Below are positions 1 through 28,075 of a stretch of DNA of 52,096 bases, one piece after another; position 1 is the stretch's first letter, and each line of letters opens with the position of its first letter. This DNA is from a virus. The stretch lies in IMG/VR virus record IMGVR_UViG_3300036770_008238, positions 1-52,096 of that record, one strand, 5' to 3'. The notes under the pieces were generated by a model that did no database searches, was not told the DNA's origin, and saw only the letters and a program-made list of their open reading frames with translations. Made by a program: the position numbers and the translations under genes.

Positions 1-488
1 GCGCAGCAGTTGGTGGTTCTGGAGGCGGTGCTGCTGGAATAGGAAGCACTGGTGGTGCTAGCGGTACGGCAAATCAAGGTTTTGCCGGTAATGGCGGTGG
101 TGGCGGTGCTGGCGAGGCTGGAGCAACGGATGGGACAGCCCAAGGTGGGGATGGCGTTTCATCGCAAATAAACGGAACAGCAACGTACAGAGCGGGCGGC
201 GGAAACACTCCGAGCGCAGCAAGTAATACCGGTGGTCTTGGTGGGGGTGGCTCATGGTCTGGAGGAACTAAGGCTGGTGGCACAAACACTGGTGGTGGTG
301 GTTCTGGTGGGGCTGCTCAATTCGGCACTGGTGGCGCTGGTGGTTCTGGAGTGGTTATTGTTCGCTACCTAACAGCAGACGCAAGTACCTACACAATCAC
401 TGGCGGAACAAAAGTCGTAGGACCTGCAGGCGCAACTGCTTACACGGTCCACACATTCACATCTAGCGGAAGTTTGGTGGTCGCATAA
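1..488 (+). CDS. Glycine-rich adhesin/tail protein, 3' part
   Basis: This is the C-terminal part of an open frame that enters from the left edge (codon phase starts at base 3) and stops at 486-488. The protein is a run of Gly/Ala/Ser/Thr segments, then a segment reading [10 protein letters not shown], and ends in a short beta-rich tail, [16 protein letters not shown]. The same ending occurs in the glycine-rich proteins at 4656, 5531 and 9860, so these are paralogues. Such Gly-rich proteins with a VIVRY/HTF core are common in phage tail-fibre regions and are thought to form receptor-binding tips; that role is inferred here. The stop overlaps the ATG of the collagen-like fibre gene (TAATG), indicating translational coupling. 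The N-terminus is outside the window, so total length is unknown. Confidence 0.8.
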
Positions 489-3400
489 TGGCGATTGATT
501 TCCCGAACTCTCCCGCACCGAACGACACATACACGGTCGGCGACAAGACGTGGATTTTCATTGACAGCAAGTGGCAAAGCGGTAACGGTCCGATAGGTCC
601 TACGGGTCCAACAGGTCCGACTGGTCCAACTGGCGCTACTGGACCAACTGGTGCAACGGGTGCGGCATCAACCGTTCCTGGTCCTACTGGTGCTACTGGT
701 CCGACTGGTGCAGACGGATATGTTGGCTCCGATGGTGCCACTGGCGCTACTGGAGCAACAGGACCACAGGGTGAAGTCGGCGCAACAGGACCGACTGGTG
801 CCACAGGACCACAAGGAGATGTTGGCGCTACAGGACCGATTGGACCGACAGGGGCAACAGGACCACAGGGAGAGACTGGTTTAACTGGAGCCACTGGTGC
901 AACTGGTCCCCAAGGGGAAACCGGAGCAACAGGACCCGTTGGGGCAACTGGGGCAACAGGCGATGTCGGTGCAACAGGGCCCGTCGGGGCAACTGGAGCC
1001 GTAGGTCCGACGGGTCCAATAGGTGCCACAGGACCAACTGGCGCCACTGGTCCAGAACAATATGTAACGGTTTCTTCTGGTGCTCCCGCATCTCCGGTGC
1101 AAGGAGAAATGTGGTTCGATTCCGACACCACGCAAACATTCATTTATTACGATTCAACGTGGATCGAGATCGGCGCCGCTGGCGCAGTAGGCGCAACGGG
1201 TCCTACTGGTCCTGCTGGTGCCACTGGTCCCGAAGGCGCTGAGGGCGCAACTGGACCCGCAGGTGTAGAAGGTCCAACAGGACCAACTGGTGCGACTGGT
1301 GATACTGGAGCAACTGGACCAACAGGAGACACTGGACCCACAGGACCAGCAGGTGCAACTGGCGCCACAGGTCCAACAGGTCCTGTTGGTGCTACTGGTC
1401 CTACTGGTCCGAACGGACCGTTGAATGACCTATCTGATGTAACCATAACTGATGTTGCGACAGGAGACGTTCTTTACTATGGGGGAAGCGGCTGGGTAAA
1501 CACACCCATCGCAGGTATCGCCGCAAGTTCTTCAATAACTGTTTCCACGACCGCACCAGCCTCCCCGTCCGAAGGAGACATGTGGTTTGAATCCGACACA
1601 GGAAGAACCTACGTTTATTTTGATTCATACTGGGTGGAAATAGGTGCGGTTAGCACTGGTTCGCGAATCGCCATCAGTGGCGGCGCACCCGTCAACCCCG
1701 TGGAAGGCGACTTGTGGTTTGATTCTGATACAGCAAAAACGTTTGTTTACTATGACTCGTCGTGGGTGGAAGTAGGCGCCGCCAACAGCGTTCCGCAAGT
1801 CCTCGACGACTTGACGGACGTATCCGCTGCATCGCCGACAAACGGTCATTTCCTACAATGGAACGGTACGGCTTGGGTCAATGATGAGATCGACTTGGGT
1901 ACGGATACGACTGGTAATTATGTTGCGACGATTGCCGGCACTACGAATCAGGTGTCGGTGTCTGGGTCTGGTTCTGGGTCGGCGGCGGTCACGTTGTCTA
2001 CTCCGCAGGACATTCATACGGGTGCGACGCCGACGTTTGCGGGTGCAACATTGTCGGGCTCTTCGTCTGGTGATTTGTTGCGTATTACGCAGACTGGTGC
2101 GGGTAATGCGCTGGTTGTGGAGGATTCAACGAATCCTGATTCGACGCCGTTTGTTGTTGATAATGCTGGAAGGCTCATCGTTGGTCATACGGGTTTCGTT
2201 GATGTTGATACGTTCACACCTGCAACACAGTTGCATCATTATGGGGCGGGTCTTGGGCTTTACAGGTGGAGTGCGAACGGAACTGGTGTAACTACGTATG
2301 TCGCAAAATCTCGCGGCGCAACTGCGGGTTCTTACACCACTCTGCAATCTGGTGACCAGTTGCATGTTCTGAGTTCTTATGGCGCTGACGGTACGGGTTT
2401 TGTAAATGCGGCTCAAATTGCCACGACTGTTGACGGTGCGGTTTCTACTGGTGTTGTTCCTGGTCGCATAACTTTCAATACCGCTTCTTCTGCTGGAACC
2501 ATTACGGAGCGTATGCGTATCGACTCCGCTGGACAAGTAGGAATCGGTGGAACCCCGTCGGCTGGCGACACGCTACGCCTCTCCAAAAACATCACTGGGG
2601 CAGTCAACAGTGGTGGAGTGTACGTCAGCGGAGCCATCCAATCAGATGTAACCACCGCAGTCCGCGTGTTTCGGTCAACTCCGTCAACCGCCAACAGCAA
2701 CTTTACATTGACGCAAATCTCGCACTATAGCGTCGTTGAGGGCACGTACAGCAACATTACGGCTGGCGGTGCGGTAACGAACCAGTACGGGTTCTTGTGC
2801 GGTCCGATGACGCAGGGTACGAACATCTACGGTTTTGTGGGTCAGGTCGCCGCCGCATCAGACCGCTGGAACCTATACATGAGCGGCGGAGCCGCAAACT
2901 ATCTGGCTGGTCGCCTCGGCGTAGGCGCGACCCTGACATCTGGTGCGATGGCGTTGATTACGAACACGACCGCCGCCGACGTTGGGCTAATCGTCAAAGG
3001 GGCCGCGTCACAAACAGGTGATTTGTTTTCAGTTCAAAACTCTGCGGGCACAAAACAGTGGCACATCAACAGTTCCAACGCAATCGGACACGGCATAGGA
3101 ACCGCCACTACAACTGGTTTCGTTGCCAGCGCTGGACTAGTCGCAAAAACATCTACCGCGTTCGGACCCCAGTACGTGTTGGGCAACAAAACCAACGACA
3201 CGAGCGCCCCTTATGTCATTCTTGAAAAAGACCGAGCGGATGCAGTCGTTCAATCAGGTGACGTTTTGGGCAACATTCAGTTCCGAGGTTATGATGGGGC
3301 GAACTATCGTCCAGCAGCGGCAATCGTGGCGGTGGTTGACGGCACTCCAGACACTGACGATATGCCTGGGCATCTGCGTTTCAATACGACAGCCGACGGT

Positions 3401-4060
3401 TCATCCACGCTTACGGAGCGTATGCGTATCGACTCCGCTGGACAAGTCGGAATCGGAACGACACCTGGAGCGGGAAGAAACTTGGTCATTGGCAAAGCAA
3501 TCACTGGTTCCACTGGCTCAATAGCAGTTGTTGTCAACTCGACCATACAGTCAGACGTAACTGCCGCCACGGAAATCTTTAGGTCAGCGCCATCCACCGC
3601 TGCTCAATCATTCACTCTTACCAGCCTTAGCCATTTTTACACTCTTGGTGTTTCTACTCCTGGGTCTGGCTCTGCAATAACAAACCAGTACGGTTTCTTT
3701 GCTGGTTCTTCGTTGACTGGAGCCACGAACAACTACGCCTTTTACGGAGACGTAGCCGCCGCATCAGGTCGCTGGAACCTTTTTGCCATCGGCACAGCCG
3801 CGAACTACATGGCGGGTCGTCTCGGTGTCGGAGCAACGCTGACTTCTAATGCGATGGTGCGGATTACAAACACAACCGCTGCCGATGTTGCACTTATTAT
3901 CAAGGGTGCGGCAAGCCAGTCTGGCTATTTGACGGAATGGCAAAATAGCACCGGAACCACGGTGGCATACGTAAACGCCGACGGTACATCATCGTTCGGA
4001 GGAAATCCACTAACATCTTCACAAGCCGCCGCCGTCCTAATCATGGACATCGGCGCATAA
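488..4060 (+). CDS. Collagen-like tail fibre protein (1190 aa)
   Basis: A long fibre protein. Residues 1-33 form a small module (MAIDFPN...[11 protein letters not shown]) that recurs as the 61-aa protein at 9085. Two collagen-like blocks follow (about residues 36-190 and 230-325), made of Gly-X-Y triplets dominated by GPT and GAT. Between and after them, three copies of a module with the core (G/E)xMWFxSDTxxTxxYYDSxWxEIG occur. The C-terminal two thirds is beta-rich and contains two copies, about 300 residues apart (near 673 and 976), of a block starting [15 protein letters not shown] and ending in an LGVGATLTS...NTTAADV...IKGAASQ unit. Collagen-like GPT triplets form triple helices in bacterial and phage fibres; the protein probably forms a trimeric side or tail fibre. 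Proline and threonine in the triplets are candidate substrates for the hydroxylases and glycosyltransferases at 10.9-16.1 kb (inference). No S74-type intramolecular chaperone motif was recognised at the C-terminus. Confidence 0.9.
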
Positions 4061-7332: not shown

Positions 7333-8199
7333 ATGCCCTGTGTATACGCCCTTTATTCTTCGGAAAATCCCAAAGAAATCAAATATGTTGGTCGTTCGCA
7401 ATTCGATTCTCCACAAAAACGCTTGAGTACACATATTCAAGAAGCAAATCAAGGGAAATCAAATACATACAAATGTAAGTGGATACGACATGTTTTGACG
7501 TCTGGTTTTAAAGTTGAAGTTATAACTTTGGAAACAAATTTATCATGGGATGAATCTGCAAAAAAAGAAATGGAATATATTTCGCATTATAAATCGCTTG
7601 GGCATAAATTAACAAATTTGACACTCGGCGGCGATGGAGCACTCGGAATGGTGCATACCAACGAAACACGACTCAAGATGCGCATCGGTCATCTGGGACG
7701 CAAACACTCGCCAGAAGCAATAGAGAATATGAAAAAAGCCCGCAAGTTTGTAAGTGCGGAAACTAGAGCCAAACTGAGCGCATGGCAAAAAGGTAAACCA
7801 AAATCAGAAGAGCATATACAAAAAATGAGAAAACCAAAATCCGCTGAACATGTAGAAAAAATGCGTCAAGTCAATCTAGGTAGACAATTTTCAGAAGAAC
7901 ATAAACGAAAAATTAGTATTGCGGGTAAAGGGCGTATTGTTTCAAAGGAGACTCGAGACAAACTGAGTAAAGCGAAAAAAGGTTTTAAGCATACACCAGA
8001 AGCAATAGAAAAAAATAGACAGGCTCATTTGGGGAAAAAAGCCTCGCTAGAAACCAGAATGAAACAAAGCGCTGCCAGGAAAGGCAAAAAAAGAACTCCG
8101 CTTTCTGCTGAAACTAAAAAAAAGATAAGTGATACTCTTATACTACGCAATAAGCGTTTACGAGAAAACCGAACATCGCCAACTGTAGGAGGTGAATGA
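7333..8199 (+). CDS. GIY-YIG homing endonuclease with NUMOD3 repeats
   Basis: A 288-aa protein with an N-terminal GIY-YIG nuclease core: VYALY at residues 4-8 and KYVGRS at 17-22, with an Arg-containing helix (PQKRLSTHI) and a Glu helix (KKEMEYI) downstream. From about residue 105 the C-terminal half contains repeated NUMOD3-type DNA-binding motifs of the form (K/R)xSPEAIENMKKAR, PKSEEHIQKM, TPEAIEKNRQAHLGKK and SLETRMKQSAARKGKK. This order (catalytic head, NUMOD3 tail) is that of phage free-standing homing endonucleases, which cut a cognate site to spread their own gene. The DNA is clearly more AT-rich than the flanking fibre genes, consistent with insertion. It lies between two fibre-type genes; its stop overlaps the start of the next gene, so it has kept the operon intact. 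No intron boundary is visible. Confidence 0.9.
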   Translation: MPCVYALYSSENPKEIKYVGRSQFDSPQKRLSTHIQEANQGKSNTYKCKWIRHVLTSGFKVEVITLETNLSWDESAKKEMEYISHYKSLGHKLTNLTLGGDGALGMVHTNETRLKMRIGHLGRKHSPEAIENMKKARKFVSAETRAKLSAWQKGKPKSEEHIQKMRKPKSAEHVEKMRQVNLGRQFSEEHKRKISIAGKGRIVSKETRDKLSKAKKGFKHTPEAIEKNRQAHLGKKASLETRMKQSAARKGKKRTPLSAETKKKISDTLILRNKRLRENRTSPTVGGE

Positions 8200-8903
8200 T
8201 GCCGCTGTCAAGCGTCCTCGGCGCATCATCCGTCATAAAGCCGGGTGTATGTACTTCTACAACCCGCCCTACAGCTCCATATGAAGGGCAACTCATTTAT
8301 GAAACCGATACGGGCAGGGTTGTTTCTTGGAACGGAAGTGCGTGGGTGCATACGGCGCCTAGTGGACTTGTGCCTATCGCCCCAACTTCAGTTGGCAAAA
8401 CTGGCACAAGCAGTACCGCAACAGCAAGTACCATCGGTCAAGTCACTTTTGCGCTATGTGAAACATTGTTGCTTAACGGAGTATTCACTAGTGCATATGC
8501 CAACTACCGAATCGTGTTCACAGGATTTGGTAGCACAGGCCTATCAATGAACTGCCGTCTCAGCGTCGGAGGTTCGCCGTCATCCGCTGCGTCGTACAAC
8601 CGACAGCGATTGGTTGCGACTAGCACAACCGTAGCAGGCGTAAGGTCAACGGGCCAAACGTCGTGGGAAATTGCCACCAACATTGATACGACAGGCGGCG
8701 ATAATTTGTCAATGGATATCTTCAACCCGCAAGCGACCGCTAACACGTCATTCAACGTTTTATCGCTAAGTACGGTAAGCAGCAGTTATTGGCAATCAGC
8801 CGTTGGGTATTTCAACGCAACCACATCATTTGACGGAATACAATTGTTAGCAAGCACTGGCAATATCAGCGGAATCGTTAGCGTGTACGGGTACAACCAA
8901 TGA
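8199..8903 (+). CDS. Tail-fibre-type beta-rich protein (234 aa)
   Basis: The N-terminal region carries a 'GxVCTSTTRPTAPYEGQLIYETDTGRVVSWNGSAW' type module, the same kind of 'P-x-EGxLxYxTDTxxxxxWNGxxW' repeat found in many phage fibre proteins and related to the MWFDSDT modules of the large fibre at 488. The C-terminal about 160 residues look like a beta-sandwich binding domain (ending VSVYGYNQ). Two ATGs are available at 8196 and 8199; the AGGAGG at 8187-8192 is better spaced for 8199. The previous gene's TGA (8197-8199) overlaps the start. A role in host binding is inferred; there is no enzymatic motif. Confidence 0.75.
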   Translation: MPLSSVLGASSVIKPGVCTSTTRPTAPYEGQLIYETDTGRVVSWNGSAWVHTAPSGLVPIAPTSVGKTGTSSTATASTIGQVTFALCETLLLNGVFTSAYANYRIVFTGFGSTGLSMNCRLSVGGSPSSAASYNRQRLVATSTTVAGVRSTGQTSWEIATNIDTTGGDNLSMDIFNPQATANTSFNVLSLSTVSSSYWQSAVGYFNATTSFDGIQLLASTGNISGIVSVYGYNQ

Positions 8904-9085
8904 GCAAAATTAGGATTTACGACGGCGGTTATTCGGATGAGCAACGCAAAACCGACCAAGCGACGGCAAAAGAAAAACTTGAACAGGAACAAGCGCAAAA
9001 AGACGCCAAAGAATCAGCCAAAGCCAAACTCGCCGCCTTGGGTCTAAGCGAAGACGAAGTTAACGCAATAATCGGAGGCATCTGA
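8900..9085 (+). CDS. Small helical hypothetical protein
   Basis: A 61-aa protein: a short head (MSKIRIYDGGYSDEQ), a highly charged Lys/Glu/Gln/Ala helix (about residues 15-43) and an ending AALGLSEDEVNAIIGGI. The ending resembles the 'LGLTEEEVxALxG' tails of short phage proteins near tail fibres. The start overlaps the preceding stop (ATGA) and the stop overlaps the next start (TGATG). The helix could be a coiled coil that trimerises or caps a fibre; this is inference only. Confidence 0.7.
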   Translation: MSKIRIYDGGYSDEQRKTDQATAKEKLEQEQAQKDAKESAKAKLAALGLSEDEVNAIIGGI

Positions 9086-9270
9086 TGCCGATTGATTTCC
9101 CTGCCTCCCCAACAACTGGCGACTACTACTCATACGATGCCCGCACCTGGAAATGGGACGGTACGGCTTGGATACTCGTCGCAAGTGCTACTCTGGTAAA
9201 CAACGTGGACGGCGGCGGACCAGATTCGGTCTACGGCGGTATCGCAACCCTTGACGGGGGAGGTGTCTAA
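9085..9270 (+). CDS. Small protein with fibre N-terminal module
   Basis: A 61-aa protein whose first half, MPIDFPASPTTGDYYSYDARTWKWDG, is clearly related to the first 33 residues of the collagen-like fibre at 488 ([26 protein letters not shown]). In the large fibre this module is probably the attachment or registration segment. Here it stands almost alone, followed by a Gly/Asp-rich tail (VDGGGPDSVYGGIATLDGGGV). The gene is coupled to its neighbour on the 5' side by overlap and abuts the next gene directly. It may be an adaptor or a remnant of a shortened fibre. Confidence 0.7.
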   Translation: MPIDFPASPTTGDYYSYDARTWKWDGTAWILVASATLVNNVDGGGPDSVYGGIATLDGGGV

Positions 9271-9495
9271 ATGGCCGTAACTATTCAACTAAGACGAGGC
9301 ACTGCCGCCGCGTGGACGGCATCTAACCCGACCTTGGCTGCCGGCGAACTCGCCTTGGAGACCGACACCGGCAGATACAAGATCGGCAACGGTTCAACGG
9401 CTTGGACGAGCCTTTCGTACTCGTCTTTGCCGTCGAATGCGATTACCTCTGGAGAAAACGACCAAGTCGTCCTAGCGACGCAGATTTTCGGATAG
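9271..9495 (+). CDS. Mtd-N-like (major tropism determinant N-terminal) protein
   Basis: A 74-aa protein with the characteristic pattern IQLRRGTAAAWTASNPTLAAGELALETDTGRYKIGNGSTAWTSLSY. This is the small N-terminal domain found at the base of phage receptor-binding proteins such as the Bordetella phage major tropism determinant and many fibre or hyaluronidase-like proteins. In those proteins it is followed by a long shaft; here the domain is essentially the whole protein, with only about 25 extra residues. It probably acts as a small base or adaptor of the adhesion complex. It starts on the base after the preceding stop, and a 7-nt gap separates it from the next gene. Confidence 0.75.
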   Translation: MAVTIQLRRGTAAAWTASNPTLAAGELALETDTGRYKIGNGSTAWTSLSYSSLPSNAITSGENDQVVLATQIFG

Positions 9496-10941: not shown

Positions 10942-11994
10942 ATGCGATTCCATGTGGTGAGTTTGCCACACACCCAAACGAACCTAGATTTCACGGCGTG
11001 TGCCTTCACCGAGAAGGTGCGCAAGTTTGCCATCATGATGAAGTCTCTCGGGCACACGGTGTATGTATATTCAGGGGACAAAAACGAAGCACCGTGCGAC
11101 GAGCACATTCAGTGCTTCACGGAGAAAGAAAGACTCGCCGCCTGCAACGGCGGGCACTACACGATGGCGTCGTTCGACGACTCAAAACCACATTGGGTCA
11201 AGTTCAACCAGACCGTAATTAAAGAACTGCGCGGTCGCCTAGAGGAACGAGACTTCATATGCGTCATCGGCGGCTATTCGCACAGGTCAATCGCCTACGC
11301 CTACCCGAACCATATGACGGTCGAGTTCGGCATCGGATACCCAGGAACCTTCGCCAAGTATCGTGTGTTCGAGTCGTATGCGTGGATGCACTCCATTTAC
11401 GGCGCGGAAGCCAAGAATCCTGCGGCGGCTGATGGCAGGTTCTATGACGCAGTCATTCCCGCCTACATAGACATCGCTCAGTTCCCATTCGTGGAAGAAC
11501 CGAGCGATTACTACTTGTTCATGGGGCGCCTCATAGAACGCAAGGGCTTCAACATCGCCGTGGAAGCCTGCAAGAAGGTTGGCGCCAGACTGCTCATCGC
11601 AGGGCAGGGTATTCCACCTTCGTACGGAGAATACGTGGGTGTGGTCGGCTCGGAGAGACGCGCCGAATTATTCGGTAACGCAATTGCATCGTTCGCACCA
11701 ACCATTTACGTGGAGCCGTTCGGCACGGTTGTAATTGAGTCGCAAGCCTGCGGAACCCCAGCGATAACTACTGATTGGGGCGCATTTACCGAGACGGTAA
11801 CTAATGGCTTGAACGGCTATCGATGCCGCACACTGAAAGACTTCGTTGGGGCAATGGAGAAAGCAAAGTCCCTAGACCGCAAAAAGATTAGGGAATACGC
11901 CGTGGCGCAATATGGACTGGATGCCGTGGCACTTCGCTACGACGAGTACTTCAAGCGTCTTTCTACGCTCTGGGAGGACGGTTGGTATTCGTAA
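10942..11994 (+). CDS. GT4-type glycosyltransferase (350 aa)
   Basis: A GT-B fold glycosyltransferase of the GT4 (group 1) type. The N-terminal half resembles an acceptor-binding Rossmann domain (VRKFAIMMKSLGHTVYVYSG). The C-terminal half has the donor-binding signatures: YYLFMGRLIERKGFNIAVEA (about 190-209), LLIAGQG, and YVEPFGTVVIESQACGTPA followed by TDWGAFTETV (about 254-283), which contains the EPFG and the E-x7-E element that holds the nucleotide sugar. It therefore transfers a sugar from a nucleotide donor; donor and acceptor cannot be read. It lies directly after the fibre genes and just before four hydroxylase-like genes, so modification of virion fibres is a reasonable guess; a host-surface glycan is the alternative. 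Confidence 0.85.
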   Translation: MRFHVVSLPHTQTNLDFTACAFTEKVRKFAIMMKSLGHTVYVYSGDKNEAPCDEHIQCFTEKERLAACNGGHYTMASFDDSKPHWVKFNQTVIKELRGRLEERDFICVIGGYSHRSIAYAYPNHMTVEFGIGYPGTFAKYRVFESYAWMHSIYGAEAKNPAAADGRFYDAVIPAYIDIAQFPFVEEPSDYYLFMGRLIERKGFNIAVEACKKVGARLLIAGQGIPPSYGEYVGVVGSERRAELFGNAIASFAPTIYVEPFGTVVIESQACGTPAITTDWGAFTETVTNGLNGYRCRTLKDFVGAMEKAKSLDRKKIREYAVAQYGLDAVALRYDEYFKRLSTLWEDGWYS

Positions 11995-12692
11995 TGACGA
12001 CGATCACTTTAAGAAAAACGCAAATTGATTCACCGGCTCTGCGTCAATCACGGGTGAGACGCGACTGGATGGACGCCACGCACAACAAGCACGCATACCA
12101 GTGTCGTCCGATGACCGTAGCCAACGTCTACGGCTGGGAGCTGTCCCTCCCGTGCGAAGTCAGGGTCGCCTGGAGGGGAGGGAACCACAACGTCGACATA
12201 CTCAACTCCCCGAAATTCGGAGTTTCCGCAGGGATTATAGGAATGATAACTTTCCCGATCGGATGGAGGTTCAAGACGGAACCCGGCCACTCCATACAAA
12301 TAGGAGGTTCCCCCAATCTGATACTGCCCGGGGCTCAAGCACTGTCGGCGATCATTCCGACGGACTGGTGGCCCGACGAGTTCCAGATGAATTGGGTTAT
12401 AACCGAAGTCGATAGGGAGGTTGTTTTCCCCGAGGGTTTTCCGTTCATGTTCTTCACCGTCATCAAGAACTCGGTCGCCGAGGAAGCCAAATTATTACTG
12501 GATTCTTCGCCGGAAAACAGGGAAGCCGTCGAATCGCGCATCAAATACGGAGAAAGCAAAATGAGGCGGAACGTGGAAGAGCCGTGGACTTGGACTCGAG
12601 GCATCAAGACGGGTCTCGATGCCGACGGGAGCAGGATAGGGCCCGCCTTCACCGGCCTACCCAAGCTTCACGAACTCGGCGACGAAGGCTGA
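11994..12692 (+). CDS. DUF6065 family protein
   Basis: Recognised by the DUF6065 pattern: RRDWMDAT...AYQCRPMTVANVYGWEL near the N-terminus, then GIIGMITFPIGWRFKTEPGHSI, IIPTDWWPDEFQMNWVIT and a final FPEGFPFMFFTVI. In the family this looks like a beta-sandwich with cupin-like strand order, but the biochemical activity is unknown to me. The ATG at 11994 overlaps the previous stop (TAATG) and is preferred to a TTG 12 bases upstream. Genes of this family are often seen beside 2OG-Fe(II) oxygenases and glycosyltransferases in viral clusters, which fits its place here. The 3' end overlaps a small convergent gene by 25 bases. Confidence 0.75.
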   Translation: MTTITLRKTQIDSPALRQSRVRRDWMDATHNKHAYQCRPMTVANVYGWELSLPCEVRVAWRGGNHNVDILNSPKFGVSAGIIGMITFPIGWRFKTEPGHSIQIGGSPNLILPGAQALSAIIPTDWWPDEFQMNWVITEVDREVVFPEGFPFMFFTVIKNSVAEEAKLLLDSSPENREAVESRIKYGESKMRRNVEEPWTWTRGIKTGLDADGSRIGPAFTGLPKLHELGDEG

Positions 12693-12832
12693 GAATCGGC
12701 TATCTCGGCGACCCTGTCGATCGTCCGCTGATCCACGAGCGAGGCGAGGACGTGTCCAACCCATTGATACGAGGACTTTTCGCAGTAACCCTTGGATTGC
12801 ATGACCTTAGCTATCGATTCGACGTCAGCCAT
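12668..12832 (-). CDS. Small hypothetical protein (54 aa)
   Basis: An open frame read on the minus strand: MADVESIAKVMQSKGYCEKSSY... ending IADSQPSSPSS. It starts 8 bases inside the end of the minus-strand oxygenase gene (12825-13526) and so would be its coupled downstream partner. It converges with the DUF6065 gene and overlaps it by 25 bases. It contains one Cys and no membrane segment. No family was recognised. Support comes from operon spacing and normal codon use rather than homology. Confidence 0.5.
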   Translation of the reverse strand: MADVESIAKVMQSKGYCEKSSYQWVGHVLASLVDQRTIDRVAEIADSQPSSPSS

Positions 12833-13526
12833 AGGGATTGCTGCTCGCTTTCGTGCCGTCTTCGTTGTATCCCGGCGTGTATTTATGGAATCTATCGTTG
12901 TAGTCGAACATCGTAACCGCCGAGTACTTCACGCCCGACTTAACCGGCAACGAGGCGTGCGAATATATGAAGTTCGACGGACAAATTACTATGTCCCCTT
13001 TCCTCGGGGCGTACTTTTGGTCTATGTACGGAAACCAAAGCTCCCCTCCCTCAAAATCGTCGTTGAGATAGCCGACCGTGGAGACTGAACAAGTGTAGGA
13101 AAATCCGTGATCGGCATGGACGTTGAAGTGCTGACCGACGCCGTATTTGACGAAGTTCACGGCCTCTATGTACTCCATGGTTATTCCGTATTGAGACGTG
13201 TAGTTGTCCACGCAGGCCTTCGTGTATGCGATCAAGTCGTTGAGCAGGCGAGCCATATGAACGTACTCCTGTGGGGCCGAGTCAAGCTCCGATTTCCTAA
13301 GTTTGCAATCGAAACAGTCCCTATAATCTTTCATCTCCTGGTAGTCGCCGACGAGCGCAGGGGACCAAGATACCGTCTTGGACTTCCCGATCGCCATGGC
13401 GTTTTCTATGGTCTGAATGTCGGTCGTGTACTCCGGCAACACGGAGCGATAAATTTTTATGCCGAATCTCGGGTCGTCGATGCTCTCCACTTGAATTTGT
13501 GGCTGCGTTGTTGCCGGTGCGTTCAT
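12825..13526 (-). CDS. Prolyl-4-hydroxylase-like 2OG-Fe(II) oxygenase (1)
   Basis: A 233-aa member of the 2OG-Fe(II) oxygenase superfamily, prolyl 4-hydroxylase type. The iron-binding triad is HAD in FNVHADHG (about residues 134-136) and His in YSHASLPV (about 190); the 2-oxoglutarate-binding position in SGVKYSAV is Lys, as in collagen-type prolyl hydroxylases. The linker VGYLNDDFEGGELWFP is the typical 'LND-F/Y-EGGE-x-F' strand of the P4H family. The reaction would be O2- and 2-oxoglutarate-dependent hydroxylation of a protein side chain, with proline most likely. It is divergent from the three plus-strand paralogues that follow. The start ATG lies 6 nt behind a -10-like TAGGGT, suggesting leaderless translation. 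Substrate assignment to phage fibres is inference. Confidence 0.85.
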   Translation of the reverse strand: MNAPATTQPQIQVESIDDPRFGIKIYRSVLPEYTTDIQTIENAMAIGKSKTVSWSPALVGDYQEMKDYRDCFDCKLRKSELDSAPQEYVHMARLLNDLIAYTKACVDNYTSQYGITMEYIEAVNFVKYGVGQHFNVHADHGFSYTCSVSTVGYLNDDFEGGELWFPYIDQKYAPRKGDIVICPSNFIYSHASLPVKSGVKYSAVTMFDYNDRFHKYTPGYNEDGTKASSNPYG

Positions 13527-13532
13527 GTTTTA

Positions 13533-13542
13533 ACCCTATCAT
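13533..13542. promoter_or_regulatory. Overlapping divergent -10 boxes for leaderless starts
   Basis: Two -10-like hexamers overlap here. On the plus strand TATCAT (13537-13542) ends 6 nt before the ATG at 13549. On the minus strand TAGGGT (13533-13538) ends 6 nt before the ATG at 13526. No good -35 is visible for either. The symmetric 6-nt spacing matches the better supported leaderless promoters elsewhere in the window. Confidence 0.45.
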
Positions 13543-13548
13543 TTACGT

Positions 13549-14124
13549 ATGGACCGAGCTGGAAACACGGAAAACATAGTCTTCGTACAAGGCGTTATTT
13601 GCGGTAATGATCTTGTGGCGTTGCGCTCCTACTGCGAATCGGTCGAGCACTGGTCCTCCAACTCGTACGACGGAAGCGACGACAAAATACACCACGTAAC
13701 GTCGTTCTCCGAACCATGCCTATCGTCGCTGAAGGTAGCCGTGGATCATGTTCAGTGGATGATAGAGGAGCGCTTTGGTAGAGAATTGATGGGGCAAAAC
13801 CCGAACATAAGGAAGTGGGAGGTCGGCGATTATCAGCCACTGCACGCCGACGGAGAAGATACGGAGGGGAAACCCAACGAAGCCTATCCGGTGGATTATG
13901 CGTCGATCGTCTACGTCAACGACGACTACGATGGCGGAGAAATAGAGTTTCCGCTTCAGGGGATAAAGTGGAAGCCGGTAGCCGGAACGGCCGTATTCTT
14001 TCCCGCCAACAAATGGTTCTCCCACATGGTCCACGAAATAACGAGCGGCACGAGATACACGTCTCCACAGTTCTGGATGCCAACGAAACACGTCAAATTG
14101 CGCGATTTTTATGCCCTTGCATGA
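13549..14124 (+). CDS. Prolyl-4-hydroxylase-like 2OG-Fe(II) oxygenase (2)
   Basis: A 191-aa P4H-type oxygenase. The iron ligands are HAD in QPLHADGED (about 98-100) and His in WFSHMVHE (about 159), with Arg in SGTRYTSP as the likely 2-oxoglutarate anchor. It also has the family strand YVNDDYDGGEIEFP. It is clearly related to the genes at 14111 and 14646, which share VGDYQ(P/S)xHAD and NDDY(D/E)GG, so the three are tandem duplicates. The probable reaction is hydroxylation of a peptidyl residue using O2 and 2-oxoglutarate. It shares a divergent control region with oxygenase (1) and its 3' end overlaps the next gene by 14 bases. Possible substrates are the Gly-Pro-Thr fibre (488) and the PPPF protein (16618); this is inferred from context only. 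Confidence 0.85.
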   Translation: MDRAGNTENIVFVQGVICGNDLVALRSYCESVEHWSSNSYDGSDDKIHHVTSFSEPCLSSLKVAVDHVQWMIEERFGRELMGQNPNIRKWEVGDYQPLHADGEDTEGKPNEAYPVDYASIVYVNDDYDGGEIEFPLQGIKWKPVAGTAVFFPANKWFSHMVHEITSGTRYTSPQFWMPTKHVKLRDFYALA

Positions 14125-14644
14125 CTCTGGTTACGGAATAGAGTGGTTCCACGATTCCATACGGAACATTGACGAGCTCGTTGCATCAGTATCTTCGCTT
14201 CCCTGGTCGCGGCCGCAAAATGTGGACAGGAAAGACAGATCAAACTCGGTTTTCTACATGATGTCGCGCGATCGGCATCCGGTGGAATTTGGTTTCGTCG
14301 ACGAATTCTTGTCTTCCGGCTTGGCCGAATACAGGGATAAATATAGGTTGCAGAAGCTCAAATACGAATCGGTTGAGGCTTTGCTGTACGAGGAGGGGGA
14401 ACGATACGTGGAGCACTTCGACAACGGCTCCCCGCACGTCGCCAACAGGATATGCAGCATGGTCGCCTATTTGAACGACGATTACGAGGGCGGAGAGATC
14501 GAATTCCCGATCTTCGGCTTGAAGACCAAACCAAAAGCCGGATCATTGGTCGTTTTCCCATCAAACTATCCCTACTTGCACGTCGTGCATCCGGTTCTTT
14601 TCGGAAAACGATATGCATTGAACGTCTTTTTCTGCTACGAATGA
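14111..14644 (+). CDS. Prolyl-4-hydroxylase-like 2OG-Fe(II) oxygenase (3)
   Basis: A 177-aa member of the same P4H-like series. The iron site is H-x-D in VEHFDNGSP (about 101-103) plus His in PYLHVVHPV (about 157), and GKRYALNVFF carries the Arg for 2-oxoglutarate. The strand VAYLNDDYEGGEIEFP is nearly the same as in its neighbours, while the N-terminal substrate-binding half differs, suggesting the paralogues act on different sites. All catalytic residues are present, so this copy is not degenerate. It overlaps the preceding gene by 14 bases and the next begins two bases after its stop, so the three are one transcription unit. Confidence 0.85.
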   Translation: MPLHDSGYGIEWFHDSIRNIDELVASVSSLPWSRPQNVDRKDRSNSVFYMMSRDRHPVEFGFVDEFLSSGLAEYRDKYRLQKLKYESVEALLYEEGERYVEHFDNGSPHVANRICSMVAYLNDDYEGGEIEFPIFGLKTKPKAGSLVVFPSNYPYLHVVHPVLFGKRYALNVFFCYE

Positions 14645-14645
14645 A

Positions 14646-15239
14646 ATGAGGAATTGCGAGGAGGTTACTCCGCCTGGGTACTGGGGATCGGGAGCGGAGA
14701 ACATACACGTAGTCGATAACTTCGTGTCGCCCGATGATTTGTACAAAATAATGACCTACGCCGAATCCATAAGGACTTGGGGTGAACTTGACGACGCATG
14801 GGACCAGCGAGTTCATTCGTTCGAGATGATCCACTCCAATTGCGAAGACGTGGCGGACTTCTTGAAATCGCTGACCGATTCGATCAGGGAGTCCATATCC
14901 GAAGCTCTCTACGCCGAATTGACCGAAGCTGCTCCGAGCATAGTCAGATGGAGAGTCGGAGACTATCAGTCACCGCACGCCGACAAGCAGGAAGTCGACG
15001 GTTCTCCGAACCGGTATCCGGAAAACGACATTGCTTCGATCGTTTACCTCAACGACGACTACGAAGGCGGGGATATCTATTTTCCAAATCAGGACTTAAG
15101 TTTAAGGCCCAGCGCAGGTTCGCTCGTATTCTTTCCCGGCGACGTCAACTACCTCCACGGAGTAACGGCCGTGAAACGGGGGGTTAGGTACACGATGCCT
15201 AATTTTTGGAGCATTAGGAGCATCTGTAAGTTTTCTTGA
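14646..15239 (+). CDS. Prolyl-4-hydroxylase-like 2OG-Fe(II) oxygenase (4)
   Basis: A 197-aa oxygenase with HAD in YQSPHADKQE (about 110-112), distal His in NYLHGVTAV (about 172) and Arg in RGVRYTMP (about 181). It shares IVxWxVGDYQxxHAD and ASIVYLNDDYEGGDIYFP with oxygenase (2), making these the closest pair of the four. The ATG at 14646 is used because the ATG at 14641 reads straight into a stop. The 3' end overlaps the convergent GlcNAc-transferase-like gene by 26 bases, placing a hydroxylase and a glycosyltransferase tail to tail. Full catalytic set retained; substrate unknown. Confidence 0.85.
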   Translation: MRNCEEVTPPGYWGSGAENIHVVDNFVSPDDLYKIMTYAESIRTWGELDDAWDQRVHSFEMIHSNCEDVADFLKSLTDSIRESISEALYAELTEAAPSIVRWRVGDYQSPHADKQEVDGSPNRYPENDIASIVYLNDDYEGGDIYFPNQDLSLRPSAGSLVFFPGDVNYLHGVTAVKRGVRYTMPNFWSIRSICKFS

Positions 15240-16128
15240 ACTTTTCTAAATCTATTCCGATGAAATCAACTGCCATTTTTGCCGACTCTTGGTCTGGCGC
15301 GCCCCATAGCCCGGTTAGGGTTCCATCAAATATTGATGCGACTCTTTGGGTCGTATACGAGTCCATGGACCTCAGTATGGGCGGAGGAGCGTCGTGCATG
15401 AAAATGGTTCTCCAATCTCCTGATTTTTTTGCGTCAAAGAATTTATCTCCTTTATCCAGGTGGTAGATGTCAAGATAGTCAGTGGAAAAACTTCTGATCC
15501 CCCTGGAAATTAACCTAAAATATATGCTTAGCTCCTCTCCGTAAAACCACATATGGGGATCGGGCGGAACTACGGAAAAGGTTTTCGAAGCAGAAAACAT
15601 GTACGCGGCGGAAACGGCCCTATTCTCCATCCAGTCAACTTTTTTTCGAGGAACCCAATTTTTTGACCAAACCCGAAAATGTTCGTCCAAAAACAAAAAA
15701 GAAGATTCTTCATTTTTTCTTATCGGAACCATAAATCCTTCTGGACCCTCCATGCACGGACTCACGTGCTGGGAAATTACTATCTCGTTTTCGCAGGCGT
15801 TGGAAATGGCCTCGTATCTTAAGACAATTTCGGAATCCCAGTTTTTTCCGAAAATCATGTGGGCATCGCACTGCAGAACGTAATCGAAACACGCCGAATT
15901 TTCCATGGCCATGTAACGCGGTATTCCCACGCCCGTGGGAACGCTAGTTCTGTATTTTTTGTGCGCCGCCGGATATTCGTCGAGGTCGGAAAATTTATCA
16001 TCCGTTCTGAATTCGCATACGTTCACGAATACATCGTTTTCGTTGCTTTTGTTTTCAATTATTGACTTGACGGTTTGTTCAACGTGGGATTCGTTGTATG
16101 CCGCTATGGCGACAAGAATCGTCGCCAT
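15214..16128 (-). CDS. GlcNAc-transferase-like GT-A enzyme (Skp1/hydroxyproline type)
   Basis: A 304-aa GT-A glycosyltransferase. It opens with ILVAIAAYNE and an N-terminal nucleotide-sugar domain; DYVLQCDAHMIFGKNWDSEIV (about 82-102) holds the metal-binding acidic motif, followed by PPDPHMWFYGEELSIYFRLISRGIRSFS, a segment characteristic of the 'GlcNAc' family (Pfam PF11397). The type member in Dictyostelium adds GlcNAc to a hydroxyproline of Skp1 made by a prolyl 4-hydroxylase. Here the gene lies tail to tail with four P4H-like genes and in the same operon as a poly-Pro protein (16618), which makes a hydroxylate-then-glycosylate pathway plausible. It starts 5 bases after the preceding zinc-protein stop. 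Family assignment is by recognised pattern, not by search. Confidence 0.8.
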   Translation of the reverse strand: MATILVAIAAYNESHVEQTVKSIIENKSNENDVFVNVCEFRTDDKFSDLDEYPAAHKKYRTSVPTGVGIPRYMAMENSACFDYVLQCDAHMIFGKNWDSEIVLRYEAISNACENEIVISQHVSPCMEGPEGFMVPIRKNEESSFLFLDEHFRVWSKNWVPRKKVDWMENRAVSAAYMFSASKTFSVVPPDPHMWFYGEELSIYFRLISRGIRSFSTDYLDIYHLDKGDKFFDAKKSGDWRTIFMHDAPPPILRSMDSYTTQRVASIFDGTLTGLWGAPDQESAKMAVDFIGIDLEKFKKTYRCS

Positions 16129-16132
16129 TCGT

Positions 16133-16366
16133 TCACCACTTACCGAGCGGGCAAGTGGCGTCTTTGAGCTTCACCTTAAGATTCATGAAACACCCGCACT
16201 CCCTGCACTGATTCGTGACCCGCATGAGGCGGTCGCACGATAGGCAGATATTGAAGCGCGTGGTACTTTCGTCTTCGGTGGACTTTTTGACGTTTGGATC
16301 GAGGACGTCCCAAGGCCTAGTGGATCCGAGTTTCTTCTTGTATTCGCTCCAAGCGCTCATGATCAT
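16133..16366 (-). CDS. DUF6171-like zinc-binding protein (77 aa)
   Basis: A small Cys-rich protein, common in phages near structural or modification genes. It has YKKKLGSTRPWDVLDPN, then CLSCDRLMRVTNQCRECGCFMNLKVKLKDATCPLGKW at the C-terminus. The C-x2-C...C-x2-C-x-C...C arrangement should bind zinc. The 'RPWDLLNPN...ICxxCxxxxKxTxQCxECGCFMxxKxxxxxAxCPLGKW' pattern is that of the DUF6171 family, of unknown function. The start overlaps the previous stop (ATGA), and the glycosyltransferase starts 5 bases downstream, so it belongs to the fibre/modification operon. Confidence 0.75.
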   Translation of the reverse strand: MIMSAWSEYKKKLGSTRPWDVLDPNVKKSTEDESTTRFNICLSCDRLMRVTNQCRECGCFMNLKVKLKDATCPLGKW

Positions 16367-16590
16367 TCGGCCGGAGGGATGAAATCAACCCCGTCAAACG
16401 TCCATCCGGCGACTACCGAGGTTTTCAGTTCTTCCGGAACGAGAACTATTTGCGGATCGGAGCTTAGGGCGGCTACGGCGTTTTCGGCTTCCTGTGGGTA
16501 CCTCATCGCAAAAGCGACTTCTCCGTCCACTACCACCGCAAAAACGCTCATGGTTGCCTCATTTATACGAGGCACCGAGGAATTTGACAT
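16363..16590 (-). CDS. Small tail-region protein (75 aa)
   Basis: MSNSSVPRINEATMSVFAVVVDGEVAFAMRYPQEAENAVAALSSDPQIVLVPEELK...GWTFDGVDFIPPAE. The ending 'GWTFDGxDFIPP' and the 'xxxxVVVDGEVAFxxRYP' opening resemble short phage tail proteins that carry a fibre-attachment segment. Start chosen at 16590 because a strong GGAGG lies 5 bases upstream; an internal ATG at 16551 would remove 13 residues. Stop overlaps the following gene (ATGA). Function unknown. Confidence 0.65.
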   Translation of the reverse strand: MSNSSVPRINEATMSVFAVVVDGEVAFAMRYPQEAENAVAALSSDPQIVLVPEELKTSVVAGWTFDGVDFIPPAE

Positions 16591-16617
16591 ATTTACCTCC
16601 GAATTGAAACAATACTA

Positions 16618-17262
16618 CTATAAGCACGGACCGGAAGTGCATGGTCCACAAATGCAACAGATTATGGAGATTATTTGCGTTTCCTGCGAAGGGCATCCTA
16701 CGCATGGATCAGGGTTTCCGTAGGGCGCCTGCCAATAATAGGTCCTGTATTGAACATAACTGCCGCCTTCGCACCCGTAGAAGTCCTCCGAATACAGCAG
16801 AACTCCGTTGCAGCTCGTACACGCGGGTAGCGAAAACGGCGGTGGGAACGGCGGTGGGAACGGCGGTGGGAACGGCGGTGGGAACGGCGGTGGCGCAAAT
16901 GGCGGTGGCGCAAATGGCGGTGGCGCAAATGGCGGTGGGAATGAAGGTGGAGCTACCGGTGTTGCGGAATTACTCGACGCCGTGTTGTCGGAATTCACTC
17001 CGTATGGGGTTTCGAGTTTTACCGTGAATGTATACGATGTCCCGTTTGACAAACCGGTAACGGTTATTGATGAGCATGGCGATGCACAAGTCCCCTGGAT
17101 ACTGCTGGGTGAAGAAGTTGCTCTATAGGTTCCAGAATTCGATTTGCCCCGATATGAGGACTCAGTGAAATTAACCGTGACCTGACCGTTACCCGCCGTA
17201 GCCGTGCCGATTGTCGGCGTTGAAGGCTTCTTGCCCTGACTAGCGGTATTGCCGGGAATCAC
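16618..17262 (-). CDS. FN3 / PPPF-repeat / Cys-rich protein (214 aa)
   Basis: Three parts are visible. About residues 14-103 form a fibronectin type III-like domain (PSTPTIGTATAGNGQVTVNF ... GTSYTFTVKLETPYGV). Residues about 105-147 are a proline-phenylalanine repeat in PPPF/APPPF units. The remaining about 65 residues are rich in Cys (CTSCNG, DPCVGCPS, IICCICGPC) and may form disulfides or bind metal. There is no signal peptide, so it is probably a virion surface component. It starts at GTG 17262, overlapping the previous fibre gene's stop (GTGA), and shares the operon with the GlcNAc-transferase-like enzyme. The poly-Pro stalk is an attractive substrate for the four prolyl-hydroxylase-like enzymes next door; this is inference. 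Confidence 0.75.
   Translation of the reverse strand: MIPGNTASQGKKPSTPTIGTATAGNGQVTVNFTESSYRGKSNSGTYRATSSPSSIQGTCASPCSSITVTGLSNGTSYTFTVKLETPYGVNSDNTASSNSATPVAPPSFPPPFAPPPFAPPPFAPPPFPPPFPPPFPPPFPPPFSLPACTSCNGVLLYSEDFYGCEGGSYVQYRTYYWQAPYGNPDPCVGCPSQETQIISIICCICGPCTSGPCL
16838..16942. repeat. 12-bp tandem repeats encoding the PPPF stalk
   Basis: On the plus strand the unit GGCGGTGGGAAC is repeated four to five times, followed by three copies of the variant GGCGGTGGCGCAAAT-type unit and a degenerate copy. Read on the minus strand this gives PPPF and APPPF. Copy number of such short in-frame repeats changes easily, so stalk length is likely variable. Confidence 0.85.
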
Positions 17263-18371
17263 GTCGAGCTCAAATCACCAATCAGATACCACTCGTCGGT
17301 TCCTCTTTTGATCAGGGTCGCCGTCGAATATTGGGCTCTTAGATATGACCCCGGTGTCGCCCTGACGGTCACACCCCCGGTGGCAACGACTTGTGTCTTG
17401 CCGGCGCCATACTGGGTTATGGTGACCTGAGAGCCGATCGGGAATGCGTGAGCCGAATTGAGCGGCACCGTCACCGTATTTGCTGATCCGACGTTCATTT
17501 CGATTACCTTGTTCTTGTCTCCAAGAACCAGGGAGTAATTTGCGGTCTTGGTGTCTATTGAAAGATCGGCGATCTTTCCTCTTTCGATCCCCGCGGTGGA
17601 ACTGATGTCGGCGTTCACTATGGTTCCGTCTGCAATCATCGTGCTCGTAACAGTGCCCGTATCGGCGGCAGTTATTGCCGTGCCCGAAATCTTGGTCTTA
17701 TCAATTGCAGCCGAAGCGTTTATGTCGGCGTTGACAATTACCCCCGACCCAATAGCCGTAACCCCGGTTGAACTGACCGTTACGTCACCGCTCAGTGCGG
17801 TGGCGGTCGGAACGTTGCTCGCATTTCCGATAAGAACCTGACCGGCGGTAATGCTCGCCAATTTGCTATGGGCTATGGCCGCCGATGCGTTTATGTCTGC
17901 GTTGACTATCGTACCGTCGGCTATTTTCCCGCTGGTCACGGCATTGGCGGCGATCTTCGATTCGGTTACCTCTCCGTCGGTTATCGTGTTCATGATCACA
18001 CCGGTCAGCATCCACGAGTTCGCGTCAAGTTTCAACAGGGTGGCTAGCGAATAACGGGTATTCAGCTGGAGGACCGAACCCTCGGCGCTTATTGCGACAC
18101 CGGAGGCGCCCTGAACGTTCACGGTTCCGGCAGAGTCCAATAGAAGATTCACCCTGTCGCCGACGTCGAACAAAACGGAAGAGTCGGCGGGAACCGTCAG
18201 GGTTACGGAACCAGAGTTGGTGAATCTAATCAACCTGCCCAAATCCGAGGCCACGAGCGTATACGAGGTTCCCGACTGCGTATTTATCGTGTAATTGAAG
18301 TCGCTGGCCTGCAGCGTGTTCATTTGGGCCGCCGTTAGCGTTTGCCCGGCGGTAAATTGCTGAATCGTCAT
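17259..18371 (-). CDS. Tail-fibre-type protein with DGTIVNADI repeats (370 aa)
   Basis: The N-terminus reads MTIQQFTAGQTLTAAQMNTLQ, a head found in phage fibre proteins ('xFxxGxVLTAADMNxL'). A beta module (SYTLVASDLGRLIRF...VLFDVGDRVNLLLDSAG) follows, then repeats containing DGTIVNADI(N/S)ASAAI and a pattern 'SGKIADGTIVNADI' typical of beta-helical fibre shafts. A final module (TANYSLVLGDKNKVIEMN...IGSQVTITQYGAGKTQV) copies the first. It is therefore a fibre with similar beta domains at both ends of a repetitive shaft. The ATG at 18371 has a GGAG 6 bases upstream and is preferred to an upstream TTG. It heads the minus operon running down to the glycosyltransferase at 15214. Confidence 0.8.
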   Translation of the reverse strand: MTIQQFTAGQTLTAAQMNTLQASDFNYTINTQSGTSYTLVASDLGRLIRFTNSGSVTLTVPADSSVLFDVGDRVNLLLDSAGTVNVQGASGVAISAEGSVLQLNTRYSLATLLKLDANSWMLTGVIMNTITDGEVTESKIAANAVTSGKIADGTIVNADINASAAIAHSKLASITAGQVLIGNASNVPTATALSGDVTVSSTGVTAIGSGVIVNADINASAAIDKTKISGTAITAADTGTVTSTMIADGTIVNADISSTAGIERGKIADLSIDTKTANYSLVLGDKNKVIEMNVGSANTVTVPLNSAHAFPIGSQVTITQYGAGKTQVVATGGVTVRATPGSYLRAQYSTATLIKRGTDEWYLIGDLSST

Positions 18372-18386
18372 CGGTGGCTCCGTCAA

Positions 18387-18592: not shown

Positions 18593-21931
<3,339 letters not shown>

Positions 21932-26174: not shown

Positions 26175-26992
26175 TCGTCTCTTCCGACGTTTCCGCCATC
26201 TATGGGGAAATACCATCCAGTTCCGTTTTTGACTGCTGCCGGCATGTCTGATCTATGGTTTATCCCCGAATAGTGGGCTATCAAAGCCCTTCTCGTCATT
26301 TTTTTGTCATTGGGTACGGAGCCTCTGTGGACCAGGCGAGAGTGCCAGAACAGCACGTCCCCTCTTTGCGGGAGGTGCGTGACGACTTCCGCCTTTCGTT
26401 TCTCTATCTCTTCGGTGAAAATCGGCGTAAGAATGTCCTCCGAGTAAGTAGGCCATCTGTGATCCCGTTTTTCTCGGGGTAGTGCTTCTAATATTTTTTC
26501 GCGCGTGACCACCGGCCAACGATGAGACCCTCTAACGAATTGAAAAGGACCCGAGTCCGGATGTATGTCCTCGAGGGCGATCCATACGGCGACGTAATAA
26601 TCGCCGACGTGCGGGGGGTTGAGATAGGTGTCCTGATGCCAATCTCTCGTGGTGGATTTCCACCCGGTGAGATTCAGGTGAACGGCGGCCGGCTCCCCTA
26701 TCAACTGCCGCATTTGTTCGCTTATCGGCCCATGCATCAGAATGCTCATCAATTCAGGATGCCTCCTATACGGAGTGCAATCGGACCAACCCCCTGGATT
26801 GAGCATCACCAATGAGCCGTCAATCACGGCGCCGTTGTTCTTTATCCAGCATTCTTCGTACTCGGACATGAGCTTTTCTCCGACTTCGTCGGACAACAAA
26901 CCTTTTCTGAGCACGAAGCCGTCGTCGTTCCAGTCGAGCGGACCGGGTTCTGGCGGTGGAACGGATAGGGACTCGTAATTCACTGTGATCAC
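26171..26992 (-). CDS. PhyH-type 2OG-Fe(II) dioxygenase (273 aa)
   Basis: A member of the phytanoyl-CoA dioxygenase (PhyH) family. The iron triad is H-x-D in RDWHQDTYLN (about residues 118-120) and the distal His in VLFWHSRLVHRGS (about 219-223); Arg in MTRRALIAHYSG is the 2-oxoglutarate anchor. The segment DIHPDSGPFQFVRGSHRWP is the classic PhyH signature before the lid region. These enzymes hydroxylate small molecules or lipids rather than proteins, so its role differs from the P4H-like set. It starts at GTG 26992 overlapping the glycosyltransferase stop (GTGA). Confidence 0.85.
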   Translation of the reverse strand: MITVNYESLSVPPPEPGPLDWNDDGFVLRKGLLSDEVGEKLMSEYEECWIKNNGAVIDGSLVMLNPGGWSDCTPYRRHPELMSILMHGPISEQMRQLIGEPAAVHLNLTGWKSTTRDWHQDTYLNPPHVGDYYVAVWIALEDIHPDSGPFQFVRGSHRWPVVTREKILEALPREKRDHRWPTYSEDILTPIFTEEIEKRKAEVVTHLPQRGDVLFWHSRLVHRGSVPNDKKMTRRALIAHYSGINHRSDMPAAVKNGTGWYFPIDGGNVGRDE

Positions 26993-28068: not shown

Positions 28069-28075
28069 TCGCACG

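Follow-up and report, generated by a model that had tools for sequence, protein, structure and literature searches.

A recurrent phage tail-fibre cassette with 2-oxoglutarate-Fe(II) oxygenases and a probable proline-repeat substrate

The DNA held as IMG/VR virus record IMGVR_UViG_3300036770_008238 (52,096 bases, here called the window) encodes four 2-oxoglutarate (2OG)-Fe(II) oxygenases resembling prolyl-4-hydroxylases (P4H), a PF11397 glycosyltransferase (GT), a protein with a PPPF tract and a collagen-like fibre protein, which raises the question of what the oxygenases modify and whether that modification is coupled to the addition of a sugar. An initial annotation, made from the letters of the sequence, proposed that the phage hydroxylates collagen-like or poly-Pro fibres and then links N-acetylglucosamine (GlcNAc) to the hydroxyproline. 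When genes were read as open reading frames (ORFs) and matched to Pfam and PHROGs, all ORFs named in that annotation were present at the starts it gave, and profile matches bore out its naming of a Gly-Pro-Thr (GPT) collagen-like fibre, a GT4-type enzyme and a member of the family that contains the Skp1 GlcNAc-transferase Gnt1 (Table 1). The comparisons described below, made among partial contigs, indicate that the window is probably one instance of a phage cassette for modifying a tail-fibre-associated proline-repeat protein by proline hydroxylation.

The four oxygenases (w1 to w4) score 34.5-56.1 bits against PF13640, whose cut-off is 27 (E 7.6e-15 to 4.1e-08), and each retains, as initially annotated, the HxD...H iron triad and the basic residue (R/K) that binds 2OG; the catalytic residues are likewise intact in 228 of 231 relatives. 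An AlphaFold2 (AF2) model of w4 (14646 only; pLDDT 92) shows a double-stranded beta-helix, for which the best Foldseek matches were vCPH of the virus PBCV-1, followed by human P3H1, Bacillus P4H and PHD2. The modeled fold of w4 is closest to prolyl hydroxylases of viral, bacterial and animal origin, and the profile search and structure prediction that had been proposed as checks both agree with the original assignment. Every window oxygenase also has a 48-53% identical relative in a cassette with Pro-Pro (PP) repeats, in locus L030 for w1 and in locus L070, whose repeat is PPPF as in the window, for w2, w3 and w4. In a further locus (L539, 7476-8813), a 446-residue protein beside a PPV tail matches PF13640 in its C-terminal part and, weakly, WelO5-like proteins in its N-terminal part, and possibly represents two fused oxygenase domains.

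A test independent of the oxygenases was provided by scanning IMG/VR for DNA encoding (PPFx)4, with (GPT)5 and (PT)6 as controls, and calling oxygenases within 3 kb of the repeat with a profile built from eight oxygenases. An oxygenase was found at 64 of 91 PPFx loci, compared with 12 of 103 GPT-collagen loci (Fisher p 1e-17) and 4 of 97 PT loci (p 3e-23), and the density of oxygenase genes per 10 kb of flank was 3.35, 0.32 and 0.09, respectively. Near-duplicates were collapsed at 80% identity over 1.5 kb, with the repeat gene excluded from the comparison, since repeat DNA by itself connects loci; the corresponding counts were then 58/82, 12/97 and 4/94. Relative to the repeat gene, 135 of 137 nearby oxygenases are downstream and 120 of 137 share its strand. 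Among PPFx loci in bacterial or archaeal genomes, 2 of 73 have an oxygenase.

The recurrent cassette consists, in order, of a tail-fibre gene, an FN3 protein with a Pro-Pro-repeat tail, one to nine oxygenases and DUF6065. This is the usual order in 20 loci, which carry sulfotransferase-like, peroxidase/thioredoxin-like or PF11397 genes as variable extras, and all four parts (fibre domain, adjacent PP-rich tail protein, oxygenases and DUF6065) are present in the window and in many loci. For instance, a diverged contig found by searching with w4 (L007) follows the order of the window: the end of a fibre gene, an FN3 protein with FPPF repeats, an acetyltransferase-like ORF and four oxygenase-like ORFs. 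DUF6065 is present in 57 of 82 PPFx loci with oxygenases and in 0 of 38 without, and an oxygenase is encoded no more than 100 bp away from 144 of its 165 copies, a distribution from which DUF6065 is predicted to be a partner of the oxygenases. In 28 cases the gene for DUF6171, a Cys4 protein, immediately precedes an oxygenase gene, and the protein is also present in 6 of 6 PPFx loci with a GT; judging from this neighborhood, it may be a substrate adaptor common to both enzyme types. In one locus (L331, 930-2129), a DUF6171 Cys4 protein is fused to a PF11397 GT.

The same linkage is seen from two other anchors. Where the gene directly behind the fibre gene is Pro-rich (12 or more prolines in 40 residues), oxygenases are present in 40 of 41 loci, compared with 16 of 32 otherwise; at the level of clusters the figures are 20/21 and 7/12 (p 0.016), or 23/24 and 4/9 (p 0.003) with FFPP genes at other places in the locus included. 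When loci of at least 8 kb were anchored on w2- or w4-type oxygenases, 39 of 57 contained a PP-rich tract, compared with 8 of 205 oxygenase-free loci of the GT-, GPT- and PT-anchored sets. The tie between the oxygenases and a Pro-rich protein, which had been suggested from the window, therefore holds from the repeat, the fibre and the oxygenase anchors across many phage contigs. The C-terminal domain of the fibre protein is kept across the cassette and, by tblastn, in minor tail proteins of Gordonia phages; in five cultured Gordonia phages with this domain, that slot contains no PP-rich protein and no oxygenase. A tblastn search of 50,697 phage records with the GT, the PPPF protein and DUF6065 gave no match, and thus no cultured model was found. 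Oxygenase matches do occur in cyanophages and marine single-cell phages, where FFPP neighbors were looked for and none was seen.

Comparison of the repeat proteins indicates which residue is the likely target. The FN3 part of the L539 protein is 90% identical in amino acids and 82% in nucleotides to that of the window, and its tail is (PPV)n instead of PPPF. Other oxygenase-adjacent tracts contain 26-28 prolines in 40 residues (L533, L538), (PPxFFx)n (L543, L556) or FPFFPP (L513, L515), and the majority are FFPP or YFPP. The Pro-Pro pairs are constant while the partner residue varies between cassettes; because these pairs are the element common to all tracts, proline is a likelier target than Phe or Tyr, and from the sequences it is the likely one. 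Some repeat proteins carry Peptidase_S74 (a fibre chaperone), fn3 or Hint domains, which would fit a tail appendage, and the repeat protein is presumed to be part of the virion. Two PP-repeat proteins (L059, 8066-9304; L058, 3043-5559) have weak Hint/intein-like matches behind the repeat, suggesting possible self-processing of the tail.

Taken together, these data favor, with moderate confidence, the following arrangement. Behind the fibre gene stands the gene for an FN3 protein that ends in a Pro-Pro tract and would either be joined to the tail fibre or be produced along with it. The prolines of this tract would then be hydroxylated by several oxygenases that have the prolyl-hydroxylase fold and use O2, Fe(II) and 2-oxoglutarate; each paralogue probably prefers different positions or neighboring residues, and DUF6065 would be their putative obligate helper. 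In some members there may be optional second decorations, by the PF11397 GT in the window and by a "HIPKTSGT" sulfotransferase-like protein elsewhere. Hydroxylation of the tract could stiffen it, keep a strongly hydrophobic FFPP tail in solution or contribute to receptor binding. More tentatively, the cassettes could constitute a widespread phage system in which paralogous prolyl hydroxylases and DUF6065, with optional sulfo- or glycosyltransferases, build a hydroxyproline-rich, decorated tail appendage and so tune FFPP-tail folding, solubility or contact with the host surface. Proline hydroxylation of a Pro-rich fibre-associated protein is thus retained from the initial annotation as the best guess, while its obligate hydroxyproline-GlcNAc pathway is unsupported.

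Several observations weigh against the preferred arrangement. No oxygenase lies within 3 kb at 27 of 91 PPFx loci, some of which have only a GT, and 18 of the 57 oxygenase-anchored loci of at least 8 kb lack a tract that passes the threshold, many of these being on short contigs. At 70% DNA identity most PPFx loci form one connected group, and of 40 loci that have oxygenases and sufficient flank, 38 have the fibre domain next to the repeat, so the linkage could reflect one conserved operon. In addition, the subfamilies were pre-selected, because members of such loci went into both the oxygenase model and the fibre query. According to PMC7019647 (its reference 162), no hydroxyproline was found in virions of PBCV-1, the closest precedent.

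The role of the GT has to be weighed separately. The DxH (metal-binding) and WD motifs are invariant among 15 aligned GT sequences. A search of PDB sequences with the GT gave no relative; its AF2 model (pLDDT 81) is nearest to polypeptide GalNAc-transferases (ppGalNAcTs) at a TM-score of 0.5-0.6. Because of this structural proximity a protein acceptor is plausible, and the model suggests that 15214-16128 encodes a likely polypeptide O-glycosyltransferase of GT-A fold. Its acceptor is not readable from the family, because GT60 holds both the Skp1 hydroxyproline enzyme Gnt1 and a polypeptide GlcNAc-transferase of T. cruzi (PMC6939170). Of 80 viral loci gathered from the GT alignment, 2 contain an oxygenase and 2 a PPFx tract; tracts rich in proline, chiefly Pro-Thr, are present in 36, and tracts in which Ser and Thr make up 24 or more of 40 residues in 21. 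The best reading of the GT in this setting is an optional second decoration.

The alternative that survives best concerns the GT alone and is compatible with hydroxylation of the tract by the oxygenases: the PF11397 enzyme would glycosylate Thr or Ser, for example in the Thr-rich 18593-21931 protein or at the Y-position Thr of the 488 protein, unrelated to the oxygenases. This is a serious possibility, if somewhat short of an even one. Besides the tract counts at the GT-anchored loci, it draws on the proximity of the GT model to ppGalNAcTs of mucin type, on the presence of the GT at 11 PT-repeat loci (and at no GPT-collagen locus) and on the 18593 protein, with its tract of 36 S/T in 40. On the other hand, the GT gene follows close behind a PP-repeat gene in the window, L071, L106 and L127, no Thr-rich tract is present in the stretches examined of L071, L106, L127 and L083, and a signal peptide is apparent, by eye, in the 18593 protein.

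A sequential pathway of the Skp1 type, in which hydroxyproline formed by the oxygenases within the PPPF tract would then receive GlcNAc from the PF11397 enzyme, appears unlikely. Both enzyme types do flank one PPPF or PP-repeat gene in the window, L083, L058, L076 and L556, DUF6171 adjoins both, PF11397 contains Gnt1-like enzymes, Gnt1 itself being a GT60 enzyme that acts on hydroxyproline (PMC6939170), and the GT model resembles polypeptide O-glycosyltransferases. Against this stand the scarcity of oxygenases at GT-anchored loci (2/80), the lack of a positive association within PPFx loci, where the GT is found in 3 of 61 with and 3 of 19 without oxygenases (p 0.14), three FFPP loci where the stretch examined contains a GT but lacks an oxygenase, and the GT60 polypeptide enzyme that is not restricted to hydroxyproline. 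Obligate coupling of P4H to GT was rejected as a general rule on the same counts, and the coupling of hydroxylation to GlcNAc addition that had been proposed for the window is not supported. FFPP-repeat genes accompanied by a PF11397 GT, with no oxygenase in the stretch examined, were noted in L071, L106, L127, L686 and L727, where the GT may decorate unhydroxylated tails or the oxygenases may lie off the contig. PF11397 genes on plasmids adjoin tail-sheath genes in Azospirillum (L130), type VI secretion tss/Rhs genes in Paraburkholderia (L131) and type I secretion genes in Phyllobacterium (L128), and their products may glycosylate parts of contractile injection systems.

It is similarly improbable that the oxygenases serve to alter host metabolites, 2-oxoglutarate levels or nucleic acid and are simply hitch-hikers in the tail module. 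Cyanophage 2OG-Fe(II) oxygenases have been discussed in terms of host nitrogen and energy metabolism (PMC9602691), and they occur near tail genes without FFPP neighbors; against such a role stand the strong specificity for PPFx over GPT and PT repeats, the retention of Pro-Pro through repeat swaps, the joint lack of PP repeats and oxygenases in Gordonia phages with the same tail domain, and best fold matches that are prolyl hydroxylases. Hydroxylation of Phe or Tyr rather than proline, which the FFPP/YFPP repeats of most tracts might suggest, is held very unlikely, since oxygenases are kept beside PPV and poly-Pro tails that lack aromatic residues and the nearest folds are those of prolyl hydroxylases.

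The least probable substrate is the collagen-like fibre encoded at 488, which had been put forward as a possible target. The protein matches PF01391; within its 70 Gly-X-Y triplets Pro occupies X in 29 and Y in none, and Thr occupies Y in 43. Proline is confined to X in both collagen tracts, and classical P4H acts on Y-position proline. For one Bacillus P4H, hydroxylation of proline at X in addition to Y is described (PMC8968730), because of which a minor role of the oxygenases on this collagen is possible. As their main substrate the fibre was rejected and is probably the wrong choice: oxygenases are slightly commoner at GPT-collagen than at PT loci (12/103 vs 4/97, p 0.07), but their density is ten-fold below that of PPFx loci, Y-position Pro is 0/70, and the fibre gene lies 8 kb away, outside the cassette.

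Table 1. Features of the window that bear on the cassette, with their supporting matches.
Feature	Positions	Strand	Support
Tail-fibre / minor tail protein	17259-18386	-	PHROGs tail families; tblastn to Gordonia phage minor tail proteins
FN3-like protein with C-terminal PPPF tract (APPPF/PPPF); proposed substrate	16618-17262	-	Weak fn3 match, E 0.002
Small conserved protein	16363-16590	-	36% homologue in L127; gene order of related cassettes
DUF6171 Cys4 (zinc-ribbon-like) protein	16133-16366	-	PF19668, E 6e-9
PF11397 glycosyltransferase	15214-16128	-	E 9.5e-18; 65.2 bits, cut-off 21
2OG-Fe(II) oxygenase w4	14646-15239	+	PF13640, E 4.8e-10; 50% identical homologue in L070
2OG-Fe(II) oxygenase w3	14111-14644	+	PF13640, E 7.6e-15; 50% in L070; phmmer to Bacillus P4H 3itq, E 6e-7
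2OG-Fe(II) oxygenase w2	13549-14124	+	PF13640, E 4.1e-08; 48% in L070, 44% in L030
2OG-Fe(II) oxygenase w1	12825-13526	-	PF13640, E 6.6e-11; 53% in L030
DUF6065 protein	11982-12692	+	PF19541, E 1.4e-41
GT4-type enzyme	10942		PF00534, E 9e-17
Collagen-like protein	488-4060		PF01391, E 3e-31

In the window, the first five genes of Table 1 form a minus-strand operon in which the fibre and PPPF genes overlap by 4 bases; the small conserved protein has no Pfam match. The genes of w2 to w4 face this operon, tail to tail with the GT gene, and w1 is cut off from the GT/PPPF operon by these three plus-strand oxygenases. The single operon initially described therefore holds in part: the PPPF gene shares the operon of the GT and is separate from oxygenases 2-4, which lie on the opposite strand. 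An additional glycosyltransferase is encoded at 26989-28074 (phrog_7162, E 2e-36), which brings the window to at least three. A 74-residue ORF at 9271-9495 has a Major tropism determinant N-terminal domain (PF18454, E 6e-16), and a GIY-YIG/NUMOD3 homing endonuclease is inserted within the tail region at 7333-8199. The 18593-21931 gene, which adjoins lysis genes (VanY, 22018; GH25, 23593) and has a counterpart in L007 at 7484-9406, encodes a 1112-residue protein with long Thr/Ser tracts and apparent C-terminal membrane segments in addition to its apparent signal peptide, and is a possible candidate for O-glycosylation.

The linkage to the repeat provides a specific, testable candidate substrate for the common 2OG-Fe(II) oxygenases of phages. 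If proline hydroxylation of the tract is correct, phages post-translationally hydroxylate their own particles, DUF6065 and DUF6171 gain a first functional context, and a collection of small enzymes becomes available for the production of hydroxyproline polymers. Among the papers searched, none describes a linkage between oxygenases and PP repeats, which is not proof of absence.

Among known systems, vCPH of PBCV-1, the best fold match of w4, is likewise a virus-encoded prolyl hydroxylase proposed to act on Pro-rich repeats of viral proteins, and it is active on peptides (Eriksson 1999, reference 161 of PMC7019647; PDB 5c5t). It is a single enzyme of an algal virus, whereas the phage cassettes carry one to nine paralogues in an operon behind a tail-fibre gene, together with DUF6065. 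The Skp1 pathway (PhyA and Gnt1, CAZy GT60; PMC6939170) also encodes a prolyl hydroxylase together with a PF11397 GT, but here the setting is a phage tail module with another acceptor and no statistical coupling of the enzymes across viral loci. Cyanophage S-SCSM1 has up to 24 2OG-Fe(II) oxygenases, and the role of phage oxygenases is stated there as not investigated (PMC9602691); the cyanophage enzymes belong to the same PHROG and Pfam families, occur in multiple diverse copies and often lie near tail genes, but in seven phage regions read they have no PP-repeat neighbor. Bacillus anthracis P4H and BclA offer a bacterial P4H fold (3itq, 5hv0) and a parallel to the GPT collagen-like protein of the window, while the substrate proposed here is a PP-aromatic repeat and not Gly-X-Y. 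In plant hydroxyproline-rich proteins of the extensin type, contiguous prolines are hydroxylated and often glycosylated. The cassette differs from these in being phage-encoded and without Ser-Hyp4 motifs (Hyp, hydroxyproline), and would, if the proposed hydroxylation is correct, constitute a so far undescribed bacteriophage counterpart of plant hydroxyproline-rich glycoproteins.

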